Part shown: positions 19,417 to 33,787 of the stretch, piece by piece | How positions within the stretch are numbered: position 1 is the first letter of the stretch | How the letters are laid out: the number at the start of each line of letters is the position of its first letter | NCBI GenBank assembly: GCA_947493255.1 | Contig: CANLQK010000002.1 | Span: 124,001 to 188,000 of the forward strand | From: an uncultured Paracoccaceae bacterium | Lineage (GTDB): Bacteria > Pseudomonadota > Alphaproteobacteria > Rhodobacterales > Rhodobacteraceae | DNA length: 64,000 bases | Direction: 5' to 3' | Program-made: the position numbers and the translations under genes | The notes under the pieces: model-generated | What the model saw: the letters and a program-made list of their open reading frames with translations, nothing else | Told to the model about the DNA's origin: nothing | Databases searched by the model: none

Positions 19417-20001
19417 ATGGATAAGAACCTTTCCATTGTTGTTGTAGAGCCAGACCAAGACCGGGCGCGTGAAATCGCCGAAGGCCTGACCGTGATCGGA
19501 TACCGCGACATCCTGGTCATCGGCGACACTGCGAAATTGTCGTCACGCGTGGTTGCAGCGCAGGCCGATGTTGTCTTGATCGACGTTGCGAACCCATCGC
19601 GTGACATCCTCGAAGAGCTCGCCGTTGTGTCGGACCCCTTGAACCGCCCCGTGGCGTTGTTTGTTGATGAAGATAAAGAAGGGCTGGCCAAAGCAGCCAT
19701 CGAAAGCGGTATTTCTGCCTATGTGGTCAATGGGCTGAGCGCAGACAGGTTGCGTCCCGTGTTGGATACCGCAATTGCGCGGTTCAATATGGTTGGACGA
19801 ATGCGTACCGAACTGACCCAAGCAAAGCGCGCGTTGGAAGAACGCAAAGTCATTGACCGTGCGAAGGGCCTTTTGATGAAGGCACGCGGCATTGATGAAG
19901 AAGCCGCCTATGCCCTGTTGCGCCGCACCGCGATGGATCAGGGGCGTAAAGTGGTGGATGTGGCGCAAGCCCTTGTGACCGCGGCGGACCTGTTGTCATG
20001 A
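19417..20001 (+). CDS. nasT: NasT, ANTAR-domain antitermination regulator
   Basis: 194 residues. The N-terminal receiver-like domain (about 1-120) has VVVEPDQDRA and a central VVLIDVANPS, where the phosphorylation Asp may be D52. The C-terminal ANTAR RNA-binding domain (about 130-190) reads ALEERKVIDRAKGLLMKARGIDEEAAYALLRR. NasT binds paired hexaloop hairpins in the leader of nitrate genes and prevents termination, and NasS holds it inactive without nitrate. The gene overlaps nasS as ATGA, and a matching leader RNA lies at 21274-21378. Confidence 0.93.
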   Translation: MDKNLSIVVVEPDQDRAREIAEGLTVIGYRDILVIGDTAKLSSRVVAAQADVVLIDVANPSRDILEELAVVSDPLNRPVALFVDEDKEGLAKAAIESGISAYVVNGLSADRLRPVLDTAIARFNMVGRMRTELTQAKRALEERKVIDRAKGLLMKARGIDEEAAYALLRRTAMDQGRKVVDVAQALVTAADLLS

Positions 20002-21161
20002 GTGTGTTGAACGTTGGATTTGTCCCGCTATTGGATGCGGCCCCGATCATCATCGCCGCCGAAATGGGCTTTGCCGCCGAAGAAGGGCTGGCGTTAAACC
20101 TGAAACCGGCCGCGTCATGGTCTTTGGTCCGTGATATGTTGGCATTTGGCGCGGTAGACGCGGCGCATATGTTGGCACCCGTACCGGTAGCCAGCGCCTT
20201 GGCCTTAGGGGGCGGCGCAAATGTGTCGCTTAGCGCGGGCGCCGTATTGTCCATGAACGGAACGGTTATCGGTGTCAGCGAACCAACGGCGATGCGGATG
20301 CGGGACACGGGTTTCGGTTTTGACTTCGCCGATCCAATTGGCGCTCGCGAGGCCTTGTTGGCCGTTGCGCCAAAACCATTGCGTTTGGGCGTGCCGTTTC
20401 CGTTTTCCATGCACTATGAATTGGTGACCTATTGGCTTGGGGCGGCAGGGCAGGACGCCGTTGAAATCCGCACTGTGCCCCCGTCCTTGATGGCGGATGC
20501 CATCGCCAATGATGAAATTGATGCCTTCTGCGTAGGGGAACCTTGGGGATCATTGGTTGTGGAACAGACTGCGGGCACTTTGATTTTGCCCGGCACTTCG
20601 ATCTGGAGCCAAGCCCCCGAAAAGGTACTGGCCATGCGCACGGATTGGGGCACTGAAAACGCTGGCAGCCGCAATGCGTTGATCCGCGCCTCTGTCAAAG
20701 CTGCCCGTTGGTTGGGGAACCCTGACTCCGCAACGATTGCTGCCGAAATCCTGTCGGCCTCTGAATTCCTCGACCTGCCTGCAGAAGTGTTGGACAGGGG
20801 GCTGTCTGGCCAGTTGACCATTTCATCCCGCGGTGAAAACCGGCGGGTCGGTGCTTTTGTTAGTTTCTTCGAGGGGGCTGCGAACTTCCCGTGGCGCTCA
20901 CAGGCGGAATGGATTGGGGCGCAATTGGCCGCGCGCGCAGGTCTGGATCAGACGGAAGCACGCACTGCCGCCGCCAGTGTTTTTCGAAGCGATTGGTACC
21001 GCGACGCGATGGAAGGCACCGGCCTCGATGTGCCGGGCGCGTCGTCAAAAATTGAAGGCGCAAACGCAGAAGCGATTCCCGTTGCATCGGCCTTTGGGCG
21101 GCTTTCTCTGATGCCGAACCAATTTTATGATTGCCGCGTTTTTGATCCCGATCAGACTTAG
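19998..21161 (+). CDS. nasS: NasS, nitrate/nitrite sensor (NrtA-like, cytoplasmic)
   Basis: 387 residues of the NrtA/CmpA-type binding-protein fold but without any signal peptide, as expected for the cytoplasmic sensor NasS. Text such as VGFVPLLDAAPIIIAAEMGFAAEEGL and HMLAPVPVASAL is shared with NrtA family members. By known function in Paracoccus and Azotobacter, NasS sequesters NasT and releases it when nitrate or nitrite binds. Its start codon overlaps the nasT stop, which favours equal synthesis of the two partners. Confidence 0.92.
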   Translation: MSVLNVGFVPLLDAAPIIIAAEMGFAAEEGLALNLKPAASWSLVRDMLAFGAVDAAHMLAPVPVASALALGGGANVSLSAGAVLSMNGTVIGVSEPTAMRMRDTGFGFDFADPIGAREALLAVAPKPLRLGVPFPFSMHYELVTYWLGAAGQDAVEIRTVPPSLMADAIANDEIDAFCVGEPWGSLVVEQTAGTLILPGTSIWSQAPEKVLAMRTDWGTENAGSRNALIRASVKAARWLGNPDSATIAAEILSASEFLDLPAEVLDRGLSGQLTISSRGENRRVGAFVSFFEGAANFPWRSQAEWIGAQLAARAGLDQTEARTAAASVFRSDWYRDAMEGTGLDVPGASSKIEGANAEAIPVASAFGRLSLMPNQFYDCRVFDPDQT

Positions 21162-21273
21162 TGGTCAAAAAATAGGCAGAACGGCTGACGTATTTGCTGC
21201 GGTGCAGAGAATGTGCTGATTTTTTGACCCATCGACTTGAAACCACCCGCGCTTAACGTCTCAATAACCCCAA

Positions 21274-21380
21274 GACAGGCACTGGCGTCTGTCGGCGAAT
21301 ACCCCAAAATTTGGGATCCATGAGCAAAGCCGCTCGACCTTTCATGCCTCCCCGCATGGATGAGTCTGCGGCTTATTTAC
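21274..21380 (+). promoter_or_regulatory. Nitrate-responsive leader: two ANTAR-target hairpins and a terminator
   Basis: Hairpin P1 is GACAGGC (21274-21280), loop ACTGGC, GTCTGTC (21287-21293). Hairpin P2 is GAGC (21322-21325), loop AAAGCC (21326-21331), GCTC (21332-21335). Both are hexaloops with A at position 1 and G at position 4, the established ANTAR recognition pattern. AAGCCGC (21327-21333), which runs from the P2 loop into its 3' arm, is also complementary to GCGGCTT (21368-21374), making a terminator stem followed by ATTTACGTTT. P2 and the terminator therefore exclude each other. This fits NasT-dependent antitermination 46 bases before nrtA. Confidence 0.85.
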
Positions 21381-21425
21381 GTTTGTCCAATCCTCCCTTG
21401 GACGCCCTGAAAAGGAACTATGAGA

Positions 21426-22787
21426 ATGAAAAAACTCCTGATGACCTTGGCTGCTACGTCTGCATTGTGCAGCCCAGCGTTTGCCCAAGACCTTGAAATT
21501 GACGAACTGACATTCGGCTTCATCAAGCTGACAGATATGGCGCCTTTGGCTGTTGCCTACGAACAAGGTTATTTCTTTGACGAAGGTCTGTTTGTCACAC
21601 TCGAAGCACAAGCAAACTGGAAAGTTCTCTTGGACGGCGTGATCGGCGGTCAGTTGGACGGCGCGCACATGTTGGCCGGTCAGCCATTGGCAGCGACAAT
21701 CGGCTACGGTACCGAAGCCCACATCGTCACACCATTCTCTATGGACCTGAACGGTAACGGCATCACAGTTTCCAACGAAGTTTGGGACATGATGCGCCCT
21801 CACGTTCCATCCATGGATGACGGTCGCCCACAGCACCCAATTTCTGCTGAAGCACTGGTTCCTGTGATCGAAGACTTTGCTGAAAACGGCAAACCATTCA
21901 ACATGGGTCAGGTTTTCCCTGTTTCTACACACAACTACGAACTGCGTTACTGGTTGGCAGCTGGCGGCATCGAGCCAGGCTACTACAGCCCTGAAAACAT
22001 CACCGGCCAGATCGGCGCAGATGTATTCTTGTCCGTAACTCCTCCACCACAAATGCCAGCAACGCTGGAAGCGGGTACAATCAACGGTTACGCCGTGGGT
22101 GAGCCTTGGAACCAACAGGCTGTTGCCAAAGGCATCGGTGTTCCTGTGATCACTGACTACGAACTGTGGCGCAACAACCCTGAAAAAGTCTTCGGCCTGA
22201 CAGACGAATTCGTCACCGAGAACCCGAACACAACGAAAGCCATCGTACGCGCCCTGATCCGCGCTGCAATGTGGCTCGACGAAAACGACAACGCAAACCG
22301 TGAAGCGGCTGTGGAAATCTTGTCCCGCCCTGAATATGTGGGCGCCGACTACGATGTCATCGCGGCCTCTATGACAGGTACTTTTGAATACGAAAGCGGC
22401 GACGTTCGCGAAGTCCCAGATTTCAACGTGTTCTTCCGCTACAACGCGACGTACCCGTTCTACTCTGATGCAATCTGGTATCTCACACAGATGCGCCGTT
22501 GGGGCCAAATCGCCGAACCACAGTCCGACGAATGGTTCATGGAAGTTGCCGAAAGCGTTTACCGCCCAGACCTCTACCTCGAAGCTGCTCAGTCACTGGT
22601 TGACGAAGGCCTTGCAGACGCCGCTGACTTCCCATTCGACAGCGACGGCTACAAAGAGCCAACACCAGCAGCCGACATCATCGATGGCATTCCTTACGAC
22701 GGTCGCACACCTAACGCGTACCTCGAAAGCCTGCCAATCGGCCTGAAAGGCGCGCAAATCGTCGTCGGCGAAGAAATCCAAGGCTAA
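21426..22787 (+). CDS. nrtA: Nitrate ABC transporter substrate-binding protein
   Basis: About 453 residues with a Sec signal peptide ([20 protein letters not shown]). ATG 21426 is preferred over ATG 21420 because AGGA is then 9 rather than 3 bases away. Family text includes [52 protein letters not shown] and [11 protein letters not shown], as in NrtA/CmpA proteins. It is periplasmic and hands nitrate to NrtB. It is the first gene after the nas leader, so the whole operon is under antitermination control. A 9-bp hairpin follows it. Confidence 0.94.
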
Positions 22788-22883: not shown

Positions 22884-23966
22884 ATGACCACCGTAGACCC
22901 CAATTTTGAAGCAGACGCCGAACGTGAAGCGCGTCGAGAGCGTCGTTTTACGCAGATCAATAAAGCGGACAAATGGTTCCAAGTCCTAGGTCTGTCTTGG
23001 ATGACACCGATCTTGAAAACCCTTGCTGGCGATAACCCACGCGCGCAAGGTAAAGAAATCTGGCGCCTTCTGGGCGTACCTGTTTTGGCAATCGCTATCT
23101 TCATCGGCCTTTGGGCGACATTGGCGCCAACCGTACAAACATCGTTGGGTGCGGTTCCTGGTCCGGCACAAGTTTGGGCCGAAGCCGTCAACCTGCACGA
23201 AGACGCACAGGCCAAAAACGCGCGCGCCGCGCAGTTCCAAGAACGGGTTGAGGCCCGAAATGAACAACTCATCGCCAATGGCCGCGCTGATGAAGTGAAA
23301 GACATCGCCTACACCGGCGCCCCGACCTATTACCAACAAATTTGGGTTTCGATCAAAACAGTATTCTTCGGCTTCTTGATCGCGACTGTTATTGCCGTGC
23401 CTTTGGGTATCGTCGCAGGGCTGTCACCGGTTGCCAACGCGGCCATCAACCCGATTGTTCAAATCTTCAAACCCGTTTCACCTTTGGCGTGGTTGCCCAT
23501 CGTAACCATGATCGTTTCCGCAGTGTACGTCACCAACGACGGCCTGTTTGAAAAGTCTTTCCTCGTTTCTGCAATCACCGTGACCCTATGTTCGCTCTGG
23601 CCAACACTGATCAACACATCCTTGGGCGTGGCCAGCATCGACAAAGACCTCGTGTCTGTGTCCAAAGTTCTGAAAATGGGCACGTGGACTAAGATCACCA
23701 AATTGGTTCTGCCATCCGCACTGCCATTGATCTTTACAGGTTTGCGTTTGTCCTTGGGTGTGGGCTGGATGGTTCTGATTGCCGCCGAAATGTTGGCGCA
23801 AAACCCTGGCTTGGGCAAATTCGTCTGGGATGAATTCCAGAACGGTAGCTCCTCATCACTCGCGAAAATCATGGTTGCTGTGTTCACCATCGGTATCATC
23901 GGCTTCATGCTCGACCGTGTGATGTACGCTCTGCAGTCCCTGTTCACATTCTCCAATAACCGGTGA
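22884..23966 (+). CDS. nrtB: Nitrate ABC transporter permease
   Basis: 360 residues, longer than typical NrtB (about 275). A charged cytoplasmic N-terminus (1-60) precedes helix 1 (about 62-82). GPAQVW is then followed by an extra charged helical segment of roughly 45 residues (about 103-148, rich in Glu, Arg and Ala) before the core helices. The EAA-type loop VSKVLKMGTWTKITKLVLPSALP contacts the ATPase. Ribosome site AGGAG is 8 bases before ATG 22884. It acts with NrtA and the fused ATPase. Confidence 0.92.
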   Translation: MTTVDPNFEADAEREARRERRFTQINKADKWFQVLGLSWMTPILKTLAGDNPRAQGKEIWRLLGVPVLAIAIFIGLWATLAPTVQTSLGAVPGPAQVWAEAVNLHEDAQAKNARAAQFQERVEARNEQLIANGRADEVKDIAYTGAPTYYQQIWVSIKTVFFGFLIATVIAVPLGIVAGLSPVANAAINPIVQIFKPVSPLAWLPIVTMIVSAVYVTNDGLFEKSFLVSAITVTLCSLWPTLINTSLGVASIDKDLVSVSKVLKMGTWTKITKLVLPSALPLIFTGLRLSLGVGWMVLIAAEMLAQNPGLGKFVWDEFQNGSSSSLAKIMVAVFTIGIIGFMLDRVMYALQSLFTFSNNR

Positions 23967-25651
23967 TCAATATGGACTTCATGAAACTCGACAACGTGTC
24001 TGTGTCCTTCGGTGAAGGCACAAACCGCACCGATGTTCTCAAAGACATCGACCTGACAATCGAGCAAGGCGAGTTCCTCGTCTTCCTCGGCTTCTCCGGC
24101 ACCGGTAAGACAACCTTGATCAACCTGATGGCGGGCCTTCAAGCGCCCACCAAAGGTGAGGTCACGTTCAAAGGCAAAGCTGTCAAAGAACCGGGCCCTG
24201 AACGCGGTGTGATTTTCCAAAGTTACAGCTTGATGCCGTGGCTGACTGTCGCCGGTAACGTGCGATTGGCTGTGGACACTGTGTTCCCGAAAATGCCGGC
24301 GAAGGAAAAAGAAGAAAAGGTTGATTACTACGTTAAAATGGTTGGCCTTGGTCACGCGGCCTCTCGCCGTCCGGCGGAACTATCGGGCGGTATGCGCCAA
24401 CGTGTAAACGTGGCCCGCGCCTTGGCGATGTCGCCTGAAATGTTGCTGTTGGACGAACCATTGTCCGCGCTTGACGCGTTGACACGTGCTAACCTTGCCG
24501 ACGAAATCGAAGACATCTGGCAGACTGAGAAAAAGACCTGTGTTCTCATCACCAACGACGTGGACGAAGCCATCCTTTTGGCCGACCGTATCATCACCCT
24601 AAACCCAGACGGGACATTGGGCGAAGAATTCAAAGTTGGCCTTGATCGCCCGCGCGACCGCATCGAAATGAACAACAACGACACGTTCAAGAAACTGCGC
24701 GCCGACGTCACCAAATACCTGATGGACGTTGGTATCGAAGCCAAAGTCGAAGGCAGCCGCAACTTGCCAGACGTGACACCAATCCACGGTGTTCCAAAGG
24801 CTGTTGCCGAAGCCCAAGAAGGCATGATCGACAACCGCTTCCTCGACTTCTCTCAGCTTCACAAAATCTACCCAACACCAAAGGGTCCTTTGACAGTTGT
24901 TGAAGACTTCGACCTTAAAATTGACCGCGGTGAATTCATCTCGCTTATCGGCCACTCTGGTTGCGGTAAATCCACGGTTCTGACCATGGCCGCTGGCCTG
25001 AATGAGATCTCCAAAGGCGCAATCCGCCTTGATGGGTTCCACGTCGAAGGCGCAGACCCTGAACGGGCCGTTGTCTTTCAGTCCCCAAACCTCTTCCCTT
25101 GGCTGACTGCACGCGAAAACTGCGCCATCGGCGTGGATAAGGTTTACCCAAAGGCGTCACAGGCCGAACGCCAAGACGTTGTGGAATATTATCTTGAACG
25201 TGTGGGCCTTGCCGACGCGATGGATAAATCCGCATCCGAAATGTCCAACGGTATGAAGCAACGTGTGGGCATCGCCCGTGCGTTCTCTCTCTCGCCTAAA
25301 TTGCTGTTGCTGGATGAACCTTTCGGCATGCTCGACTCCCTCACACGGTGGGAACTGCAAGAAGTGCTGATGGAGGTCTGGGAACGGACCAAGGTGACCG
25401 CAATCTGTGTGACCCACGACGTGGACGAAGCCATCCTTTTGGCGGACCGCGTGGTGATGATGACCAACGGCCCACAGGCGACAATCGGCAAAATCGTCGA
25501 CGTTGACCTGCCACGCCCGAGGTCGCGCAAAGCGCTTCTGGAACATCCTGATTACTACAAATACCGCCAAGACGTGCTCGACTTCCTTGAAGAATACGAA
25601 CACGGCGCAAAGCCAAAACCCAAAGCCAAACCTGCCATCGCTGCGGAGTAA
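23963..25651 (+). CDS. nrtD: Nitrate ABC transporter, two ATPase domains fused in one chain
   Basis: 562 residues from GTG 23963 (ATG 23972 is an alternative) with two complete ATP-binding domains. Domain 1 (about 7-235) has Walker A GFSGTGKT (43-50), signature LSGGM (140-144) and LLLDEP. Domain 2 (about 295-540) has GHSGCGKST (330-338), MSNGM (427-431) and LLLDEP. Domain 1 carries Asn198 (ITNDVDEA) where the H-loop His is expected; domain 2 has His485. Domain 2's signature is altered. It replaces the separate NrtC and NrtD ATPases, and no solute-binding regulatory domain like that of cyanobacterial NrtC is present. It overlaps nrtB by 4 bases. Confidence 0.92.
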   Translation: MINMDFMKLDNVSVSFGEGTNRTDVLKDIDLTIEQGEFLVFLGFSGTGKTTLINLMAGLQAPTKGEVTFKGKAVKEPGPERGVIFQSYSLMPWLTVAGNVRLAVDTVFPKMPAKEKEEKVDYYVKMVGLGHAASRRPAELSGGMRQRVNVARALAMSPEMLLLDEPLSALDALTRANLADEIEDIWQTEKKTCVLITNDVDEAILLADRIITLNPDGTLGEEFKVGLDRPRDRIEMNNNDTFKKLRADVTKYLMDVGIEAKVEGSRNLPDVTPIHGVPKAVAEAQEGMIDNRFLDFSQLHKIYPTPKGPLTVVEDFDLKIDRGEFISLIGHSGCGKSTVLTMAAGLNEISKGAIRLDGFHVEGADPERAVVFQSPNLFPWLTARENCAIGVDKVYPKASQAERQDVVEYYLERVGLADAMDKSASEMSNGMKQRVGIARAFSLSPKLLLLDEPFGMLDSLTRWELQEVLMEVWERTKVTAICVTHDVDEAILLADRVVMMTNGPQATIGKIVDVDLPRPRSRKALLEHPDYYKYRQDVLDFLEEYEHGAKPKPKAKPAIAAE

Positions 25652-25656
25652 GCCAA

Positions 25657-26070
25657 ATGAATGACGCCGACATTACACTGATCCAAAACAGTTTCGCCAA
25701 AGTCGTCCCAATCAAAGACGCGGCGGCTGAAATTTTCTACGGTGACCTGTTCGAAACAGCGCCAGAGGTGAAACCTTATTTCGCAAAAACGGATATGTCC
25801 GAACAGGGCAGCAAACTGATGGCGACCCTCGGGGTTGTTGTGAATGGGCTGCGTGACATGGATAAAATCCTCCCCGTTGCGGCGGAACTGGCAAAAGGCC
25901 ACGTGGATTACGGCGTTAAAGCAGAAGATTACGAAAAGGTGGGCGCGTCCCTTATCCGGACCCTTGAAAAGGGGCTGGGTGATGATTTTGACGCACCAAC
26001 GCGCGACGCATGGATCGGGGCCTATGGTGCCTTGTCTGGTGCGATGATCACGGCCGCCTACGGAGAATAA
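25657..26070 (+). CDS. Single-domain bacterial globin
   Basis: 137 residues of globin fold resembling Vitreoscilla haemoglobin. The probable proximal haem ligand is His in LAKGHVDYGVKAEDY (F8), EQGSKLMATLG covers the distal E7 region with Gln as in VHb, and DAWIGAYGALSGAMI is the final H helix. It lacks the FAD/NAD reductase domain of flavohaemoglobins. It sits 6 bases after the nitrate ATPase and 6 before nirB, so it is made with nitrite reductase. A role in handling nitric oxide formed during nitrite reduction is a reasonable inference. Confidence 0.88.
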   Translation: MNDADITLIQNSFAKVVPIKDAAAEIFYGDLFETAPEVKPYFAKTDMSEQGSKLMATLGVVVNGLRDMDKILPVAAELAKGHVDYGVKAEDYEKVGASLIRTLEKGLGDDFDAPTRDAWIGAYGALSGAMITAAYGE

Positions 26071-26075
26071 GAAAA

Positions 26076-28514
26076 ATGACCAAACAAAAAATCGTCGTTA
26101 TCGGCGCGGGTATGGCCTCTGGCCGTGTGCTCGAAAACCTGACCGATGCGGCGCCCGACCAGTTCGACATCACCCTGTTCAACGCCGAACCACGCGGAAA
26201 CTATAACCGCATCATGCTGTCCCCTGTTTTGGCAGGCGATCAAACCTACGAAGATATCGTGACCCATGACGACGCATGGTATGCTGATCGAGGCATCACC
26301 TGTCGATTTGGTGAAAAAGTCACCAACATCGACACGGCCGCGAAAATCGTTACCGGCCCGAACGGCGATGTGGCCTATGACAAACTCATCTTTGGTACGG
26401 GGTCTGAACCTTTCATCATCCCGTTGCCCGGTCACGATCTGGACGGTGTGATTGCCTACCGCGATCTCGAAGACACCGAACGCATGATGTCCATGGGTGA
26501 AGGCAACAAGGTTGTCGTCATCGGTGGTGGTCTGCTGGGCCTTGAAGCCGCCGCAGGCATGGCCGCGCGTGGCGTTGAGGTGACAGTGGTTCACATCATG
26601 GGCCACCTGATGGAACGCCAACTGGATGAGGCCGCTGGATACCTTTTGCGCAAGTCGCTCGAAGGCAAAGGCATCGACATCAAACTGCAAGCGAACTCCA
26701 AGGAAATCGTGGGTGAGGATGGCAAGGTAAAGGCCTTGATGCTGGACGACGGCACCGAATTGCCCTGTGATCTGTTGGTCATGGCCGTCGGCATCCGCCC
26801 AAGCATCGCGCTGGGCAAAGAGGCCGGCCTCGCTGTGGGTCGCGGCATCCACGTGGATGACCAAATGCTCACCTCCGTCGAAGATGTCTACGCTGTCGGC
26901 GAATGTGTGGAACATGACGGCGCGGTCTTCGGGCTTGTCGCCCCCCTTTACGACCAAGCCAAAGTTCTGGCGCAAACCCTGCTCGGAGAAGAGGCTGCAT
27001 TCGTGCAGAAAACCCTCTCCACAAAACTTAAAGTCACCGGCTGTGACCTCTTTTCCGCAGGCGATTTTGCCGAAGGCGAAGGCCGCGAAGACATTGTATT
27101 CCGCGACCCATCCCGCGGCGTCTACAAACGCCTCGTGATCGAGGGCAACAAATTGGTCGGCGCCGTGATGTACGGCGATGTGGCTGACGGAAACTGGTTC
27201 TTCCAACTGATCAAAGACGAAACCGACATCGACGAGATGCGCGAAATGCTGATCTTCGGCCCAGCCTACCAAGGCGGAGAAGCCTCGGACCCGCTCTCAG
27301 CCGTTGCAGCATTGCCGCCTGAGGCGGAAATCTGCGGTTGCAACGGCATTTGCAAAGGAACAATCGTCGACGCTATCGCAGGTGGCGCAACCGATCTGGC
27401 CGCGATCAAGGCCACCACAAAGGCCTCCGCATCTTGCGGTACATGTACGGGCCTCGTGGAACAGGTTTTGCAGGTTACGCTGGGGGATGAGTTCGAAATG
27501 CCCGCCGCCGCGTCGATCTGTGGCTGCACCGATCACACCCACGAAGACGTGCGTCGTTTGATCAAATCCATGCCGCTGCAGTCGCAAGAAGCCGTTTGGC
27601 AGGAACTGGGTTGGAAATCGCGCAACGGCTGTCACGTATGCCGCCCTGCGATCAACTATTACCTGCTGTCGGATTGGCCGATCGAATACCAAGACGATCC
27701 ACAGTCGCGCTTTGTGAACGAACGCAAACACGCCAACATCCAGAAAGACGGTACATATTCTGTTGTGCCACGGATGTGGGGTGGTATCACCACACCGTCC
27801 GAACTGCGCGCCATCGCCGATGCGGCTGATAAATACGATGTGCCAACCGTCAAAGTGACGGGTGGCCAACGGATCGACCTTCTGGGTGTCAAAGGCGAAG
27901 ACCTTCCCAACATCTGGGATGATCTGAACAAGGCCGGCATGGTCTCTGGTTACGCCTATTCCAAAGGTCTACGCACGGTCAAAACCTGCGTCGGTACAGA
28001 TCACTGCCGTTTTGGTACACAGGACAGCACGGGCCTTGGAATCAAGCTGGAGAAAATCCTGCACGGCGCTTGGACCCCGCACAAATTGAAGCTTGGGGTG
28101 TCTGGCTGCCCGCGCAACTGCGCTGAAGCGACCTGTAAAGACATCGGTATTGTTTGCGTCGACTCTGGCTATCAGATCAGCATCGGCGGTGCGGCTGGTA
28201 TGGACGTGAAAGAAACCGAACTCATGTGTTCTGTGCCAACCGAAGAAGACGCAATGGAAGTCGTTCTGGCCGTTACGCAGCTTTACCGTGAAGGCGCGAA
28301 ATACCTCGACCGTATCTACAAATGGTTGGGCAAGGTCGGCATGGATTGGGTGAAAGAACAGGTCGTTGATGACCTTGAAAACCGCAAAGCCTTGGCCGCT
28401 CGGTTCGAGCTGTCACAGACAATCTATAACCACGACCCATGGGCGGATCACGTCAAAGCGAAAGCCGACAAATACGCCCCTATGGCAGACCTGACCTTGG
28501 AGGCCGCAGAATGA
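26076..28514 (+). CDS. nirB: Assimilatory nitrite reductase [NAD(P)H], large subunit
   Basis: 812 residues from ATG 26076 (GGAG 10 bases upstream; the frame upstream belongs to the globin end). Domains in order: FAD/NAD-binding (VVIGAGMASGRVLENL, and VVIGGGLLGLEAAAGMAARG), a BFD-like [2Fe-2S] domain with CGCNGICKG and CGTC, then sulfite/nitrite reductase domains. CVGTDHC and SGCPRNC supply the four Cys for the [4Fe-4S]-siroheme centre. It reduces nitrite to ammonium with six electrons in the cytoplasm. nirD overlaps its end. Confidence 0.96.
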   Translation: MTKQKIVVIGAGMASGRVLENLTDAAPDQFDITLFNAEPRGNYNRIMLSPVLAGDQTYEDIVTHDDAWYADRGITCRFGEKVTNIDTAAKIVTGPNGDVAYDKLIFGTGSEPFIIPLPGHDLDGVIAYRDLEDTERMMSMGEGNKVVVIGGGLLGLEAAAGMAARGVEVTVVHIMGHLMERQLDEAAGYLLRKSLEGKGIDIKLQANSKEIVGEDGKVKALMLDDGTELPCDLLVMAVGIRPSIALGKEAGLAVGRGIHVDDQMLTSVEDVYAVGECVEHDGAVFGLVAPLYDQAKVLAQTLLGEEAAFVQKTLSTKLKVTGCDLFSAGDFAEGEGREDIVFRDPSRGVYKRLVIEGNKLVGAVMYGDVADGNWFFQLIKDETDIDEMREMLIFGPAYQGGEASDPLSAVAALPPEAEICGCNGICKGTIVDAIAGGATDLAAIKATTKASASCGTCTGLVEQVLQVTLGDEFEMPAAASICGCTDHTHEDVRRLIKSMPLQSQEAVWQELGWKSRNGCHVCRPAINYYLLSDWPIEYQDDPQSRFVNERKHANIQKDGTYSVVPRMWGGITTPSELRAIADAADKYDVPTVKVTGGQRIDLLGVKGEDLPNIWDDLNKAGMVSGYAYSKGLRTVKTCVGTDHCRFGTQDSTGLGIKLEKILHGAWTPHKLKLGVSGCPRNCAEATCKDIGIVCVDSGYQISIGGAAGMDVKETELMCSVPTEEDAMEVVLAVTQLYREGAKYLDRIYKWLGKVGMDWVKEQVVDDLENRKALAARFELSQTIYNHDPWADHVKAKADKYAPMADLTLEAAE

Positions 28515-28843
28515 GCTGGATCGATATCGGTGACATCAACGACATCCCTTTGCGCGGCGCGCGGATCGTGAAAACCCAAGTGGGCTGCATCGCAGTGTTC
28601 CGCACCGCACCGGATGAAGTGTTCGCAGTGTCCGACACATGCCCCCACAAACAGGGCCCACTTTCTGAGGGCATCGTGCATGGCCAATCCGTGACATGCC
28701 CGCTGCACAATTGGGTGTTCGACCTCAACACAGGCCAAGCCCAAGGTGCCGACGAAGGGTCCATCCCGACCTATCCTGTCCGCGTCGAAGGTGCGCGCAT
28801 TTTGCTGGATGCTGAATCCGTGTCGCGCCGGACTGCCGCATAA
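28511..28843 (+). CDS. nirD: Nitrite reductase small subunit, Rieske type
   Basis: 110 residues from ATG 28511, overlapping the nirB stop as ATGA. The Rieske ligand pattern is complete: TCPHKQGPL (Cys-X-His) and CPLHNWVFDL (Cys-X2-His). Many enterobacterial NirD proteins have lost these ligands, so this one probably binds a [2Fe-2S] cluster. It is the partner of NirB. nasA begins with the last base of its stop codon (TAATG). Confidence 0.93.
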   Translation: MSWIDIGDINDIPLRGARIVKTQVGCIAVFRTAPDEVFAVSDTCPHKQGPLSEGIVHGQSVTCPLHNWVFDLNTGQAQGADEGSIPTYPVRVEGARILLDAESVSRRTAA

Positions 28844-31476
28844 TGAAAGACACGGCCCTTTCCCCGACGATCCGATCAACTTGCCCCTATTGCGGGGTGG
28901 GCTGCGGGGTCTTGTTGCAAGACAACGGGCAGGGGGGGCTGACTGTTTCGGGTGATCCCGATCATCCGGCGAACTACGGCAAACTGTGTTCCAAAGGGTC
29001 TGCTTTGGGCGAAACGATGGGCGTCGAGACCCGTCTGGCATCTCCGCGTGCTTTTGGAATGGGCGTGTCATGGGATGACGCGCTTGATCTGGTGGCGGGG
29101 CGTTTTGCCCAAACCATCAAAGACCACGGTCCTGACAGCGTGGCGTTTTACGTCTCCGGCCAATTGCTGACCGAAGATTACTATATCGCCAACAAGTTGA
29201 TGAAAGGGTTCATCGGCTCTGCCAATATCGACACCAATTCGCGTCTTTGTATGGCCTCCTCCGTGGCGGGCCATAAACGTGCGTTCGGCACCGATACTGT
29301 TCCAGGCACATACGAAGACCTAGAAGAGGCCGACCTGATCGTGCTCACCGGCTCCAACCTCGCATGGTGCCACCCGATCCTGTTCCAACGTATCGTGAAG
29401 GCGCGCGAAGAACGCGGCACCAAGATCATCGTGATCGACCCGCGCCGCACCGCCACCTGCGACATTGCCGATCTGCATCTGCCTATCGCACCGGGTGCAG
29501 ACGTGCCTCTTTTCAACCGCCTGTTGGCAGAAATCGCTACCCGTGGCGCGGTGAACCAAGACTTCTTGGCCAACACCAACGGTTTCGACGCGGCCCTTGC
29601 CGCCGCGCAATCCGATGACGCGCCCACCGGCCTGTCGGACGACGACATCAAAACCTTCTGCGATATGTGGATCAACACGGACCGTGTTGTCACGATCTAT
29701 TCCCAAGGCGTGAACCAATCCACATCCGGCGCGGATAAGGTCAATTCGATCCTGAACTGTCACCTTGCCACCGGTCGCATTGGCACGCCGGGGTGTGGCC
29801 CGTTTTCCGTCACTGGACAGCCCAACGCCATGGGTGGGCGCGAAGTGGGCGGTTTGGCCAACATGCTGGCCTGTCACCTTGATCTGGAAAACGAAAACCA
29901 CCGCGCAGCCGTCAAAACCTATTGGAACGCCCCCGCTGTCATTCCTGATGCCGCAGGCCTCAAGGCTGTTGATATGTTCAACGCCGTGGCAGATGGCACC
30001 ATCAAAGCGCTCTGGGTGATGCACACGAACCCAGCCGTCACATTGCCCGAAGCCGATCACGTCCGCGACGCCATTCAGAACTGCCCCTTCGTTGTGGTTA
30101 GCGACATCACCGATCAAACAGATACCGCGCGCATCGCTGATGTGGTGTTGCCTGCGTCGGGCTGGGCCGAAAAAGACGGCACCGTCACCAACACAGACCG
30201 CACCATCAGCCGCCAACGCCGCGTGTTGCCCGCCTTTGGTCAAGCGCGCCCGGACTGGTGGCATTTGGCCGAAGTTGGCAAGCGCATGGGGTGGAAAGAC
30301 GCGTTCTCATACGATGGCCCCGCCGACATCTTCCGCGAATACGCGGCCCTGTCCCAAATCGCCGGCGATTTTGGCAAAGACTTCGACATCTCCGCTCTCA
30401 AAGATATCGACACCGAAACTTACGACGCGATGGACCCGACCCGCTGGCCCATCACCGAAACCCGTCAGGGCGGCCGGTTCTTTGCCGACGGTAAATTCTT
30501 TCACGCGGACGGTAAGGCGAAACTTCTGCCTGTCACCCACCGCGCGCCCGCAGCACAACCCACCAAAGACGCGCCGTTTATCCTCAACACAGGCCGCAAC
30601 CGCGACCAGTGGCACACGATGACACGCACCGCCTTGTCGCCGCGATTGTCCGCGCATTTGGCGGAACCCTACCTAGATATCCACCCATCAGATGCCGCTG
30701 ACCTTGGCATTGCAGCGGCTGACCTGATCAACGTGTCCAGCGACAAAGGACACTCCATCCTGCGGGCGCGCATCACCGATGCCGTCGCAAGGGGTCAGGT
30801 GTTCGCACCCATCCACTGGACAGGTGAAACTGCCCCCTCAGGTCGCATCGACGCCGTCATCGCAGGCCACGTCGATCCTGTGTCGGGCCAGCCAGAAACC
30901 AAAGCCATGCCTGTCGCCGTCCAACGGTTTGACGCCGCATGGTACGGATTTGCGGTCAGCCAAAAACCAATCCGCCCCGATCTGCCCTATTGGGCACTGG
31001 CCCGCACCACTGCCGGCGTGCGCATGGAATTGGCCGGAACCACACAGGTCGCCGATTGGGAAACCTACGCGCGCGCATTGTTTGACCTTCCCGATGCCGA
31101 TGTAAGTTCGGTGATCGATCCAAATCGTGGCGGTGCGCGCATCGTTCTTTCTATAGACGGACAGTGCCTTGCGGCGCTGTTTACATCACGCAGCCCCATC
31201 GCGGTGTCGCGTGACTATCTGGCAACGACGCTGGGAACAGCACCGCTGCCAATTTTAACGGGCAGACCACCTGTGGACCAACCTGATCCTGGCCCAACGG
31301 TCTGCTCCTGCTTCAACGTTGGCCTGAACACCATCCTGTCGGCTATCGAAAAACAGAACCTTTTGACCGTCGACGCACTGGGTGTGGCTTTACAAGCGGG
31401 CACAAACTGCGGATCCTGTCGCCCTGAGCTGACAGACATCCTGCGCAGCGCGAACGTGAAAGAGGCCGCCGAATGA
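28843..31476 (+). CDS. nasA: Assimilatory nitrate reductase, molybdenum catalytic subunit
   Basis: 877 residues. The N-terminal CPYCGVGCGV ... LCSKG motif binds a [4Fe-4S] cluster. The bis-MGD molybdopterin domains follow (DTNSRLCMAS, with Cys at the expected Mo-ligand place, VTGQPNAMGGREVGG, and the C-terminal molydopterin-binding domain with NTGRNRDQWHTMTRT). A final BFD-like domain, VCSCFNVGLN ... TNCGSCRPEL, should hold an extra [2Fe-2S] cluster. It reduces nitrate to nitrite in the cytoplasm. No separate NADH-dependent electron-transfer subunit (NasB) is encoded nearby, so the electron donor is unresolved. Confidence 0.95.
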   Translation: MKDTALSPTIRSTCPYCGVGCGVLLQDNGQGGLTVSGDPDHPANYGKLCSKGSALGETMGVETRLASPRAFGMGVSWDDALDLVAGRFAQTIKDHGPDSVAFYVSGQLLTEDYYIANKLMKGFIGSANIDTNSRLCMASSVAGHKRAFGTDTVPGTYEDLEEADLIVLTGSNLAWCHPILFQRIVKAREERGTKIIVIDPRRTATCDIADLHLPIAPGADVPLFNRLLAEIATRGAVNQDFLANTNGFDAALAAAQSDDAPTGLSDDDIKTFCDMWINTDRVVTIYSQGVNQSTSGADKVNSILNCHLATGRIGTPGCGPFSVTGQPNAMGGREVGGLANMLACHLDLENENHRAAVKTYWNAPAVIPDAAGLKAVDMFNAVADGTIKALWVMHTNPAVTLPEADHVRDAIQNCPFVVVSDITDQTDTARIADVVLPASGWAEKDGTVTNTDRTISRQRRVLPAFGQARPDWWHLAEVGKRMGWKDAFSYDGPADIFREYAALSQIAGDFGKDFDISALKDIDTETYDAMDPTRWPITETRQGGRFFADGKFFHADGKAKLLPVTHRAPAAQPTKDAPFILNTGRNRDQWHTMTRTALSPRLSAHLAEPYLDIHPSDAADLGIAAADLINVSSDKGHSILRARITDAVARGQVFAPIHWTGETAPSGRIDAVIAGHVDPVSGQPETKAMPVAVQRFDAAWYGFAVSQKPIRPDLPYWALARTTAGVRMELAGTTQVADWETYARALFDLPDADVSSVIDPNRGGARIVLSIDGQCLAALFTSRSPIAVSRDYLATTLGTAPLPILTGRPPVDQPDPGPTVCSCFNVGLNTILSAIEKQNLLTVDALGVALQAGTNCGSCRPELTDILRSANVKEAAE

Positions 31477-32366
31477 AACTTGCTGAAACTGTACGCATCT
31501 TGGCACGCGGACAGGGCAGGGCACGTTCCCTCACACAGCAAGAAGCCTTCGACGCAATGGAGCTGATGCTGACCGGCACCGCCGATCCCGAAGCCATCGG
31601 CGCGGTGCTGATGTTGATGCGCATGAAAGGCGAAATCGCAGAAGAAATCGCAGGGTTTGTGCAGGCCGCACAGGCCGCGCTTCCGACAGACCCTATCGCC
31701 GATCTCGACTGGTCCGCTTATGCCGCTGGCCGCACCCGTGGGTCCGCATGGTTCCTCCATTCGGCCAAAGCCGTCGCCGCCAAAGGCCACCGCGTCTTGT
31801 TGCACGGCTGGAACGGCACCGACACCGCGATCCGTGACGGCGTCGCACAATTGGGCATTCCGGTCTGCGAAACATTGGCCGATGCGAAAACCAAACTGGA
31901 TGCGGGCAACATCGCCTATCTTCCGCTCGAAGTCTTCCATCCCGCGCTATTCGACCTTCTTACCTTGCGTGAAAAACTGGGCCTGCGGTCCTGTGTGAAT
32001 ACGGTTTGCCGTATGCTCAACCCGGGCCGTGCCCGCGCATCTGTTCAAGGGGTGTTCCACCCATCTTACCGTTTGCTGCAATCAGATGCGGCGCAGCTCA
32101 TGGGCTGGGATGCGCTGTCCGTGATCAAGGGCGGCGGCGGTGAATTCGAACGTCACCCCGGCAAAGCCATCGAAGCCTTTGGCCTGAACGCCGGCACCCC
32201 TTGGCAAGATACGTTGCCTGCCCTAATCGATGATCAATCTCGCCTTGTGGATCACGCGGGCGATGTCACCGATACATCCGCCCCCTTCGTGCAGGCCATG
32301 ATCGACGGAACAACCGCACTTGCTCTTGAAACGCTCAGCCACCGCACCAATTCCCAAGCCGCCTGA
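31473..32366 (+). CDS. TrpD2-like glycosyltransferase family 3 protein
   Basis: 297 residues with the fold of anthranilate phosphoribosyltransferase. The N-terminal helical domain reads LTQQEAFDAMELMLTGTADPEAIGAVLMLMRMKGE, followed by HGWNGTDT and GLRSCVNTVCRMLNPGRA. The catalytic GTGGD loop of true TrpD is absent, which places it with the TrpD2/YbiB-like proteins rather than tryptophan synthesis. It is translationally coupled to nasA (ATGA) and followed by cysG. Its role is unknown; a part in cofactor supply or RNA/DNA binding is possible, and neither is shown. Confidence 0.82.
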   Translation: MKLAETVRILARGQGRARSLTQQEAFDAMELMLTGTADPEAIGAVLMLMRMKGEIAEEIAGFVQAAQAALPTDPIADLDWSAYAAGRTRGSAWFLHSAKAVAAKGHRVLLHGWNGTDTAIRDGVAQLGIPVCETLADAKTKLDAGNIAYLPLEVFHPALFDLLTLREKLGLRSCVNTVCRMLNPGRARASVQGVFHPSYRLLQSDAAQLMGWDALSVIKGGGGEFERHPGKAIEAFGLNAGTPWQDTLPALIDDQSRLVDHAGDVTDTSAPFVQAMIDGTTALALETLSHRTNSQAA

Positions 32367-32383
32367 CACGAAAGGCACGCCAC

Positions 32384-33787
32384 ATGAAAAGTTTTCCAAT
32401 GTTCATCCGCACCACGGGCCGCCGCGTTGTCGTGGCCGGTGGCTGGGAACAAGCCGCGCAAAAAACGCGGCTGTTGTTGAAAACCGATGCGCAGATCGAA
32501 GTGCTCGCACCTGACCTCGACGATGAACTCGCGGCGCTGGCCGCCGAAGGTAAGATCACCCATGTTACGGGCCCCATCACCGCTGATAGTTTCGCGGGCG
32601 CGGCCATGGGGTTCATCGCCACTGGTTGCCCCGGTCTTGATGCGTCCCTGCACGCCATCGCCAAGGAGGCTGGTATCGCCGTCAACGTGGTCGATCAACC
32701 TGACCTGTGCGATCTGACGACCCCGTCCATCGTGGACCGCGACCCTGTTGTTGTCGCCATCGGCACCGAAGGCACAGCACCCGTGTTGGCCCGCCGTATC
32801 AAAACAGAAATGGAACAGGCGCTTTCGCCTAGCTTGGGCAACTTCGCTGCGCTGGCAGGTCGTTTGCGCCCTGCCGTTGCGGGGCGTGTCCCGCAGGAAG
32901 GCCGCCGCGCTTTCTGGGCATGGGCATTCAAAGGCGCACCGTGGGAAGCCCACAAACGCGGCGCCGAACGCGAAGGCGCAAAGCTTCTTAAAGACGCCAT
33001 CGAAATGGGCGGCGCCCCGAAAACAGATACCAAAGGCTCTATCGCCCTAGTTGGCGCAGGCCCCGGTGCCCGTGATCTGCTGACCCTGCGCGCCGTCGAA
33101 CGCCTGCAAGAAGCGGACGTAATTTTCTACGACCGCCTTGTTGACCCGCAGGTCCTTGAACTCGCGCGCCGCGACGCTGAACGTGTCTTCGTTGGTAAAG
33201 TCGTAGGTGCCCACGCTTGGCCCCAAGACCGCATCAGCGAAGTGATTGTTGCCGCCGCCAAACAGGGCCAAAAAGTCGTGCGGCTCAAATCCGGCGACCC
33301 GATGATCTTTGGCCGTGCCGCCGAAGAAATCGAGGCCGCAAAAGCAGCTGACGTTGCAATCGAAATTGTCCCCGGTGTCACCGCCGCCATCGCAGCCTCT
33401 GCGATGCTGCAAACCCCGCTTACTGAACGGGGCGAGGCAGATGCCCTTACGCTGTGCACGGGCCACACCAAAGACGGGGCTGTGAACACAGACTGGGTGC
33501 GCAATGCCACACCGGGCGCGAAACTGGTGATCTATATGGGCATGGGCGAAGCCGCGAATATCGCACAACACCTGATAAACGACGGCCTTCCTGCAAATCT
33601 GCCTGTTACCATCGCAGTGGATGTCTCCAAATCAGACCAACAAGCATTTGATACGGACCTCAAACGCATGGCCGCTGCTATCAAAGACACCTCCGTCACG
33701 GGCTGCGGTCTGATCATGCTGACTGTTCCAAAGGACCACGTATCGTCCAGGCAGTCCGAATTGCTAAGGTCTACAAGCGCCGGCTAA
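32384..33787 (+). CDS. cysG: Siroheme synthase CysG (dehydrogenase/chelatase plus methyltransferase)
   Basis: 467 residues. The N-terminal half (about 1-205) is the precorrin-2 dehydrogenase/ferrochelatase, with NVVDQPDLCDLTTPSIVDRD including the catalytic Asp region. The C-terminal half (about 215-460) is uroporphyrinogen-III methyltransferase, with VGAGPGARDLLTLRAVERLQEADV, RLKSGDPMIFGR and VPGVTAAIAASA. It makes siroheme, the cofactor of NirB, from uroporphyrinogen III. The dinucleotide loop reads AGGWEQAAQK, with Trp where a third Gly is usual. It is the last gene of the nitrate operon. Confidence 0.93.
   Translation: MKSFPMFIRTTGRRVVVAGGWEQAAQKTRLLLKTDAQIEVLAPDLDDELAALAAEGKITHVTGPITADSFAGAAMGFIATGCPGLDASLHAIAKEAGIAVNVVDQPDLCDLTTPSIVDRDPVVVAIGTEGTAPVLARRIKTEMEQALSPSLGNFAALAGRLRPAVAGRVPQEGRRAFWAWAFKGAPWEAHKRGAEREGAKLLKDAIEMGGAPKTDTKGSIALVGAGPGARDLLTLRAVERLQEADVIFYDRLVDPQVLELARRDAERVFVGKVVGAHAWPQDRISEVIVAAAKQGQKVVRLKSGDPMIFGRAAEEIEAAKAADVAIEIVPGVTAAIAASAMLQTPLTERGEADALTLCTGHTKDGAVNTDWVRNATPGAKLVIYMGMGEAANIAQHLINDGLPANLPVTIAVDVSKSDQQAFDTDLKRMAAAIKDTSVTGCGLIMLTVPKDHVSSRQSELLRSTSAG

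Follow-up and report, generated by a model that had tools for sequence, protein, structure and literature searches.

Nitrate assimilation leaders of Rhodobacterales: a probable NasS-NasT attenuator with a conserved third hairpin

The leader at positions 21274-21380 of a 64-kb stretch of DNA (hereafter the window) is very probably a nitrate-responsive NasS-NasT attenuator of the nas operon, in the three-hairpin form of Rhodobacterales, with a first hairpin (P1), a middle one (M) and a last one (P2) that competes with a transcription terminator. Attenuators of this kind are already known; what is new is the presence of three tandem hairpins instead of two. Judged by comparison of related leaders, P1, M and the overlap of P2 with the terminator are conserved RNA structures, while NasT binding, read-through, the start of transcription and the role of M are what we infer for the window. 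The original prediction for this DNA, a nas leader with a mutually exclusive ANTAR hairpin and terminator, is upheld by the covariation of P1, the changes in the P2 and terminator stems, the nasT-nasS synteny and the published work on NasT of Paracoccus denitrificans.

The window belongs to the 3.36-Mb genome of a marine bacterium (G000, contig C2), and the nearest relatives of its NrtA in the genome collection are from Rhodobacteraceae, Yoonia litorea (88%) being the nearest named one. NasT and NasS had been expected to be encoded just upstream of the leader, and the Pfam matches of both proteins agree (Table 1). The N-terminal part of NasT exhibits a weak match to CheY, below the cut-off, and NasT, encoded beside the leader, is the sole ANTAR match of the 3.36-Mb genome at E <= 0.001. 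Membership in the NasS-NasT group is indicated by the neighborhood of an ANTAR protein and an NrtA-like NasS, and the gene order, nasT followed by nasS, matches the published system. The genes of the nas run would be co-transcribed, judging from their spacing. The run includes a single-domain globin gene between nrtCD and nirB (positions 25657-26070; Pfam Globin, 57.9 bits), possibly involved in NO protection, and, at 31473-32366, a gene of a TrpD-like glycosyl transferase family flanked by those for nitrate reductase and cysG. Shortly 3' of nasS, at 21200-21228, we observed a terminator-like hairpin (21200-21218 in the scan) with a T run, of which 0.4 would be expected by chance; the nasTS transcript may stop there, in which case only ~45 bp remain to accommodate the promoter of the nas genes.

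Table 1. Features of the nas leader and its surroundings (positions in the window)
Feature	Positions	Strand	Description
nasT	19417..20001	+	receiver-like + ANTAR RNA-binding antiterminator, 194 aa; Pfam ANTAR 4.3e-23, 81.3 bits
nasS	19998..21161	+	NrtA-like nitrate/nitrite sensor, 387 aa; overlaps nasT by 4 bases; Pfam NMT1_2 184.8 bits
possible promoter	21237..21265	+	TTGAAA 21237-21242, 17 nt, CTCAAT 21260-21265; start near 21272
P1	21274..21293	+	GACAGGC[ACTGGC]GTCTGTC; 7 pairs including one G-U; hexaloop 21281-21286; putative first NasT recognition hairpin
M hairpin in P1-P2 linker	21303..21315	+	CCCAA[AAT]TTGGG; stem kept, ANTAR loop G absent
P2 antiterminator hairpin	21322..21335	+	GAGC[AAAGCC]GCTC
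intrinsic terminator	21327..21379	+	AAGCCGC 21327-21333 with GCGGCTT 21368-21374; inner hairpin 21341-21360; weak U tract 21373-21379; excludes P2
nrtA	21420..22787	+	nitrate ABC-transporter substrate-binding protein; Pfam NMT1_2 301 bits; first controlled gene
remaining nas run	22884..33787	+	nrtB, nrtCD fusion, globin, nirB, nirD, nitrate reductase catalytic subunit, TrpD-like glycosyl transferase family gene, cysG siroheme synthase

The main alignment comprises a 79-nt core of the window and of 79 relatives (from the best 80 of 252 nrtA relatives) and is anchored on P2; one leader with no strict P2 (L051) was left out, and was later found at 26.7 bits by R1, a model trained on these 80 leaders. 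In the window, P1 (-10.3 kcal/mol, z -2.24 against shuffles) carries the hexaloop ACTGGC, which obeys the A1/G4 rule as predicted, and this loop core is invariant, with A1 and G4 in 80/80 leaders of a plain MAFFT alignment anchored on P2 and not on P1. The loop-closing pair C22-G29 is kept in all 79 distinct rows, and six of the seven pairs exhibit compensatory changes on both sides. G-U pairs are frequent (25/79 at one pair), as expected of RNA. Over three helices, 193 double-changed cells were observed versus 59 +/- 8 in shuffles (0/500 reaching the true value; 80 leaders, 79 distinct), and sliding the partner by 1-3 columns lowers the share of paired cells from 88% to at most 42%. Covariation of the stems among relatives, proposed as a check of the prediction, is strong for P1. 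Since P1 covaries as an RNA, transcription should start upstream of 21274 and not downstream of 21335. The 80 leaders share a weakly conserved T at -45/-44 and A/T at -20/-18 from the P1 loop (the TT of the window lies one base nearer to P1), and this sequence conservation suggests the promoter listed in Table 1, with a start just before P1. A simple sigma-70 scan returned no promoter.

P2 (-5.5 kcal/mol, z -2.25 against shuffles) has the predicted hexaloop AAAGCC, likewise with A1/G4, and overlaps, as had been claimed, the 5' arm of a 7-bp terminator stem (AAGCCGC/GCGGCTT): its loop and 3' arm double as the 5' arm of the terminator, with bases 21327-21333 in common. The inner hairpin of the terminator was absent from that account. 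Folding of the leader, another proposed check, gave structures more stable than expected by chance, both for 180 nt (z -3.4) and for the terminator alone (-25.0 kcal/mol, z -4.2 (-4.19), 0/200 shuffles). When the transcript is folded short of the 3' terminator arm, P1, the middle stem and P2 are all predicted to form; with the 3' arm present, the free optimum is the terminator (-42.7 kcal/mol), and a fold in which P2 is forced reaches -36.6 kcal/mol, a penalty of ~6 kcal/mol. The U tract of the window, CTTATTTA, is weak and interrupted, while the nearest relative (L001) has an unbroken TTTTTT. A simple terminator scan did not list the 21327-21379 terminator.

Of the best 80 among 252 nrtA relatives, 79 have a P2 of the window type, and so do 82 (77 by rule, 5 by eye) of 90 nrtA-upstream regions added from genomes of the order and the class; since the searches required the A/G1-G4 loop pattern and pairs, the frequency of this loop in P2 is no independent evidence. 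The 80 aligned leaders and these 82 make up a set of 162, which includes same-species repeats from two collections (the non-redundant sets hold 60 and 105). The eight regions without P2 by rule or eye are L232, L266-L269 and L272-L274, of which L232 was later seen to have three hairpins. P2 is nearly invariant within Rhodobacterales (80-leader set), because it is loop, antiterminator and terminator arm at once, and covariation there says little about it. Among the 162 leaders, its stem exhibits compensating changes at pair 3 (AT 149, GC 9) and pair 4 (GC 142, AT 7, CG 3, TA 2), and the terminator stem, scored in 157/162, has changed pairs, e.g. pair 1 with AT 114, GC 23 and CG 12; the 3' terminator arm was picked as the best-pairing one, so these counts show variety of the stems and are not a free test. 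The remaining five leaders fall below the terminator score cut, and their sequences still show a likely arm. The P2/terminator overlap was found by rule in 77/90 of the further upstream regions, and in other alphaproteobacterial families it is kept, by rule, with different stems; in the leaders viewed, the terminator is followed by T's throughout. As a side observation, the terminator loops of the relatives are rich in CCTCC, the commonest 5-mer (63/157, compared to 3/157 for GGAGG), and the window has the loops CTCCCC and TCCTCCC at 21341-21360 and 21385-21403. Such loops recall the 'cuckoo' RNAs of alphaproteobacteria, which bear anti-Shine-Dalgarno loops, and a small-RNA function of the terminated leader is conceivable.

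The linker between P1 and P2 was correctly given as 28 nt in the original prediction, but it is not unusually long, since 27-40 nt (5-95%, median 32) is the norm in 155 leaders, i.e. the 162 less seven without a far P1 (L260-L264, L270 and L271). The stem postulated within the linker does exist, but it is CCCAAAATTTGGG at 21303-21315 and not CCCAAATTTGGG. By comparison of sequences, this hairpin, M, is a conserved third hairpin of Rhodobacterales leaders, often with an ANTAR loop signature. Its usual stem is CCC/GGG, extended outward by a T-A or G-C pair, and divergent stems include GCCTGAT/ATCAGGC (L023) and nine pairs around ACCGCG (L080). In a permutation test in which the 3' linker halves were swapped among leaders, so that alignment of the stem was unnecessary, the mean stem score was 13.3 for the true linkers versus 11.9 +/- 0.22 (0/500), and 13.5 versus 11.8 +/- 0.27 (0/500) for 60 non-redundant leaders. 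The linkers also fold better than their dinucleotide shuffles (mean z -1.14; -0.29 for the 30 nt before P1). RNAfold draws some hairpin in 155/155 linkers, which alone is not evidence. The RNAalifold consensus of the 80-leader alignment did not draw M, presumably because MAFFT misplaces its arms where the length differs; in that alignment 78.2% of the M cells are paired and double changes are few, so the case for M rests on the permutation and loop tests and not on pair counts.

The loops of M were tallied for 94 of the 155 linker hairpins, those with loops of 5-7 nt, leaving out 61 of other sizes. Among 27 predicted heptaloops A is first in 25 and G fourth in 25; among 37 hexaloops A or G is first in 34 and G fourth in 29; and 29 of 30 pentaloops, in which one extra pair is drawn closed, have G at the equivalent place. 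An alternative drawing, which takes the longest C-G-closed hexa- or heptaloop hairpin, gives lower shares, with G fourth in 65/84 heptaloops and 20/35 hexaloops. A strict search for the ANTAR pattern, which demanded three or more pairs and a hexa- or heptaloop that is closed by C-G, begins with A or G and has G at the fourth position, found such a hairpin in 81/155 linkers versus 4.5 in dinucleotide shuffles (maximum 10 in 100), and in 51/105 non-redundant linkers versus 3.9 (maximum 9); counts for M include shared descent, for which the non-redundant sets are the only adjustment. Exact hexaloops at most 32 nt from P2 occur in 32/162 leaders versus 1.6 (maximum 6 of 200 base shuffles), and ten of the 22 non-redundant linkers that a simple rule classes as having an M stem other than the CCC type pass the strict search. 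The M hairpin of the window itself is no more stable than shuffles (-5.2 kcal/mol, z -0.46), and its loop lacks G in either drawing, as do those of L001 and L008. The reverse was seen in two leaders from one other genus (L193 in G223 and L225 in G289), in which the far hairpin has the loop GCTGCC without A1 and M has a perfect hexaloop, AATGAC or AATGAT. Another leader (L185 in G288) has a linker of ~61 nt from P1 to P2 that holds two hairpins, each with a hexaloop in which G is first and fourth, and is perhaps a four-hairpin leader.

Leaders of named genomes were studied at 18 loci around nasS from a plasmid collection, of which 17 were scanned (all but L297). Three strict hexaloop hairpins, 20-30 nt apart, are present in 7 of the 17, that is in 7/11 of those from Rhodobacterales. 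The triple of P. denitrificans HAMBI_2443 has the loops AACGGC, AATGAT and GACGAT with steps of 25 and 23 nt, the same steps as in P. pantotrophus and P. ferrooxidans; the steps are 30 and 26 nt in P. marcusii and Paracoccus sp. Arc7-R13, 27 and 23 nt in Rhodobacter sp. CZR27, and 28 and 20 nt in Haematobacter massiliensis. By the strict hexaloop rule, P. yeei and P. alcaliphilus have the first two hairpins only, and Leisingera and Sulfitobacter D7 have P1 and P2. In Paracoccus sp. AK26, outside the scan, nasS is followed by a gene on the opposite strand. Perfect triples were also found in two further Rhodobacterales leaders, L278 (steps 29, 24) and L232 (22, 23). Among Rhizobiales, 3/4 (Sinorhizobium, Ensifer and Methylocella) have two hairpins 19-21 nt apart and Peteryoungia has two at 47 nt; Novosphingobium has two at 49 nt, and Sphingomonas three with wider steps (38, 56). 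As far as these sequences indicate, one step of a triple leader resembles a whole leader of the commoner double type, and P1 to P2 equals two steps. In P. denitrificans HAMBI_2443 we saw no terminator with a U tract overlapping the third hairpin, whose loop and 3' arm can pair with the bases just before the nasA start.

Database searches covered several scopes. The Rfam search for ANTAR targets, which the prediction had recommended, gave no support, with 0 matches at the gathering thresholds over the 64 kb (Rfam 15), and the 258-nt leader searched at E up to 10 gave one irrelevant match (E 1.4). A BLAST search with the 126-nt leader matched 111 of 198 genomes of the family at E <= 1, mostly with short and weak alignments that were kept out of the main alignment. 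That R1 recovers the 80 leaders it was trained on follows from its construction, and its E-values are approximate. Of 149 genomes in the order, 71 bear NrtA, and R1 finds a match at some place in 69 of these 71. Six genomes match R1 and have no NrtA that reaches the cut-off; one of them (G205) holds the perfect triple L278, and the matches in the other five look like chance. In the class, 47/289 genomes have matches at E up to 0.05, mostly weak; four were opened (L189-L192), of which L189 and L192 precede nrtA and L190 and L191 look like chance. In the window's own genome R1 gave seven further matches, with E from 1.9 to 9.4, none significant. Three other genomes have a leader with P1, M, P2 and terminator in front of siroheme genes, more than 200 kb from the nas leader or on another contig: it precedes the uroporphyrinogen-III methyltransferase gene in G088 (L178), its counterpart by resemblance in G247 (L177), and cysG in G092 (L179). 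In the window, the siroheme synthase gene lies inside the nas run. These sequences suggest a wider NasT regulon, and a leader before siroheme genes fits the need for siroheme when nitrite reductase is made. Among other second matches in the order, L182 is close to a NirB-like frame and its terminator is doubtful, and L181, L183, L184 and L186 look like chance.

The attenuator would work as follows. Transcription would start just before P1, and P1, then M, then P2 are predicted to fold ahead of the synthesis of the 3' terminator arm. Without nitrate, NasS would hold NasT, P2 would yield to the much stronger terminator, and transcription would stop near 21380. With nitrate or nitrite, NasS would release NasT, as has been shown in P. 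denitrificans; NasT would engage P1 and then P2, and P2 held closed would block the terminator, so that the nrt-nir-nas genes would be read. In P. denitrificans, nitrate or nitrite is described to free NasT from NasS, upon which NasT binds the nasA leader (PMC3795266). That leader resembles the one in the window in the nasT-nasS-leader order and in the order of bacteria (PMC3795266, PMC5424462), whereas its first gene encodes an MFS transporter-like protein and not NrtA, and its M is canonical (AATGAT) whereas that of the window lacks the loop G. The published text describes two hairpins, tested by mutation, while the HAMBI_2443 sequence has three hairpins with A/G1-G4 hexaloops. As reported there, nas expression drops strongly and growth on nitrate is lost when hairpin HI is mutated, and mutation of HII hardly affects induction, with a two-fold effect under ammonium (PMC5424462). 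Mapped on HAMBI_2443, the published position -137 falls between the first and the second hairpin and -91 just after the third, i.e. outside the hairpins; if HII is the last one, its small effect is a poor fit with a simple need for the last hairpin.

Other ANTAR systems are related to various degrees. According to the published descriptions, the Enterococcus faecalis eutP leader with EutV shares A1/G4 hexaloops, a conserved closing pair, the overlap of P2 with a terminator and an ANTAR protein with a receiver domain, but it has two hairpins with a linker of 5-12 nt and phosphorylation instead of release from NasS (PMC3369931, PMC8934654). Shortening of the eut linker to 3 nt or its extension to 14 nt is reported to lower induction strongly (PMC3369931), and 20 additional nt in the eutP linker to abolish antitermination by EutV in vitro (PMC8934654). 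From a crystal structure of EutV with RNA, the authors of the latter report argue that the dimer cannot hold both hairpins and propose a transfer from P1 to P2 (PMC8934654). Klebsiella oxytoca nasF is likewise an assimilatory nas operon under nitrate-controlled ANTAR antitermination, but its NasR is described as a one-component NIT-ANTAR sensor acting at two hairpins; SELEX with NasR yielded the C-G closing pair and A1/G4 (PMC7496416). In Bradyrhizobium diazoefficiens, an alphaproteobacterial NasT is described as acting by antitermination at leader hairpins of nosR, but the genes controlled are those of denitrification (PMC6759348). The leaders of Sinorhizobium (L288), Ensifer (L291) and Methylocella (L300) have, like the window, nasT-nasS followed by tandem hexaloop hairpins, 19-21 nt from loop to loop, but unlike it no far P1 by the strict scan. 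Close upstream of two of them (L288, L291) lies a TGGCAC..TGC element, which by eye we take to be sigma-54-like. Of the features expected of ANTAR targets, the window has the A1/G4 hexaloops, the C-G loop-closing pair in both P1 and P2, and a second hairpin exclusive with a terminator, the U tract being weak. Its 28-nt linker exceeds the 5-12 nt of eut leaders and the 2-25 nt of the actinobacterial definition, and becomes short only if M is counted, which leaves 9 nt and 5 nt on either side. The conserved M of the relatives departs from a target of exactly two hairpins; whether the window by itself does so depends on how a hairpin of the set is defined.

What M does can be explained in more than one way. 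We tentatively propose, as a reading that could well prove right or wrong, that the ANTAR target of Rhodobacterales is a three-hairpin relay, in which NasT dimers pass from P1 to M to P2 in loop-to-loop steps of ~20-30 nt. Placed midway, a third hairpin agrees with the proposed stepwise transfer (PMC8934654) as a stepping stone, and would equally fit a larger NasT oligomer or a spacer; NasT reportedly assembles into a large oligomer after its release and may hold the three hairpins together. That M is a structural spacer, which folds away the linker and brings P1 and P2 near enough for NasT without being contacted itself, is possible though somewhat doubtful. The hairpin persists while the sequence of its stem changes, the window, L001 and L008 keep the stem without the loop G, other M loops are aberrant (TCTTCT in L194; 13-15 nt in L239 and L240), and insertion of 20 nt into the eutP linker is reported to abolish antitermination by EutV (PMC8934654). 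A pure spacer, however, has no need of loop identity, and G prevails at the fourth position of M hexa- and heptaloops in both drawings, with the strict ANTAR pattern far more frequent than in shuffles, although shared descent explains a part of this; moreover, the effective linker is no tighter than the full one (sd 5.4 versus 4.5 in 155 leaders). For relatives with an ANTAR loop, M is probably an intermediate site or a compacting element. In the window, where the stem is kept and the loop G is lost, it probably only shortens the distance from P1 to P2; that the stem persists while the loop has no signature argues for M being no more than a spacer in this lineage.

It is improbable that the leader is an ordinary two-hairpin ANTAR target in which M is fortuitous: the known model has two hairpins, NasR is reported to bind a two-hairpin RNA fully (PMC7496416), and P1 and P2 of the window obey the loop rule by themselves, but M covaries and is conserved, and the 27-40 nt linkers of the 155 leaders exceed both short-linker ranges given above. 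We consider control at the level of translation, or attenuation by a leader peptide, very unlikely. An ATG at 21320 opens a frame of 58 codons through the terminator, and the predicted fold has a 3-pair hairpin over the Shine-Dalgarno region of nrtA; against this, the base before TGAGC varies among the leaders (column 81: C 46, A 16, T 15, G 3), the leader parts differ in length by single bases, and the leaders viewed share the terminator followed by T's. The start codon is not a family feature, and the peptide from 21320 was rejected. Hardly credible at all is the idea that P1 and M serve as dyads at the DNA level, bound by a regulator such as NtrC, which according to the published text controls nas genes in Paracoccus (PMC5424462), since an invariant loop core with freely compensating arms, including the frequent G-U pairs of P1, is the mark of RNA.

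The mode in which one ANTAR protein acts on two hairpins is unsettled, and the triple leaders could separate simultaneous holding, stepping and mere spacing, with the lineages that have lost a canonical loop as natural test cases. We found no account of a third leader hairpin in the literature searched, mostly open-access text without figures or supplements, and one may exist elsewhere; the published Paracoccus leader may be only partly described. The siroheme-gene leaders show how a covariance search could widen the NasT regulon. If the relay from P1 through M to P2 is true, NasT would gain time or copies near the polymerase, the gap of ~30 nt between P1 and P2 would be explained as working where EutV fails with a linker 20 nt longer, and the lineage of the window would represent a natural loss variant, in which the stem of M is kept and the contact base is lost.
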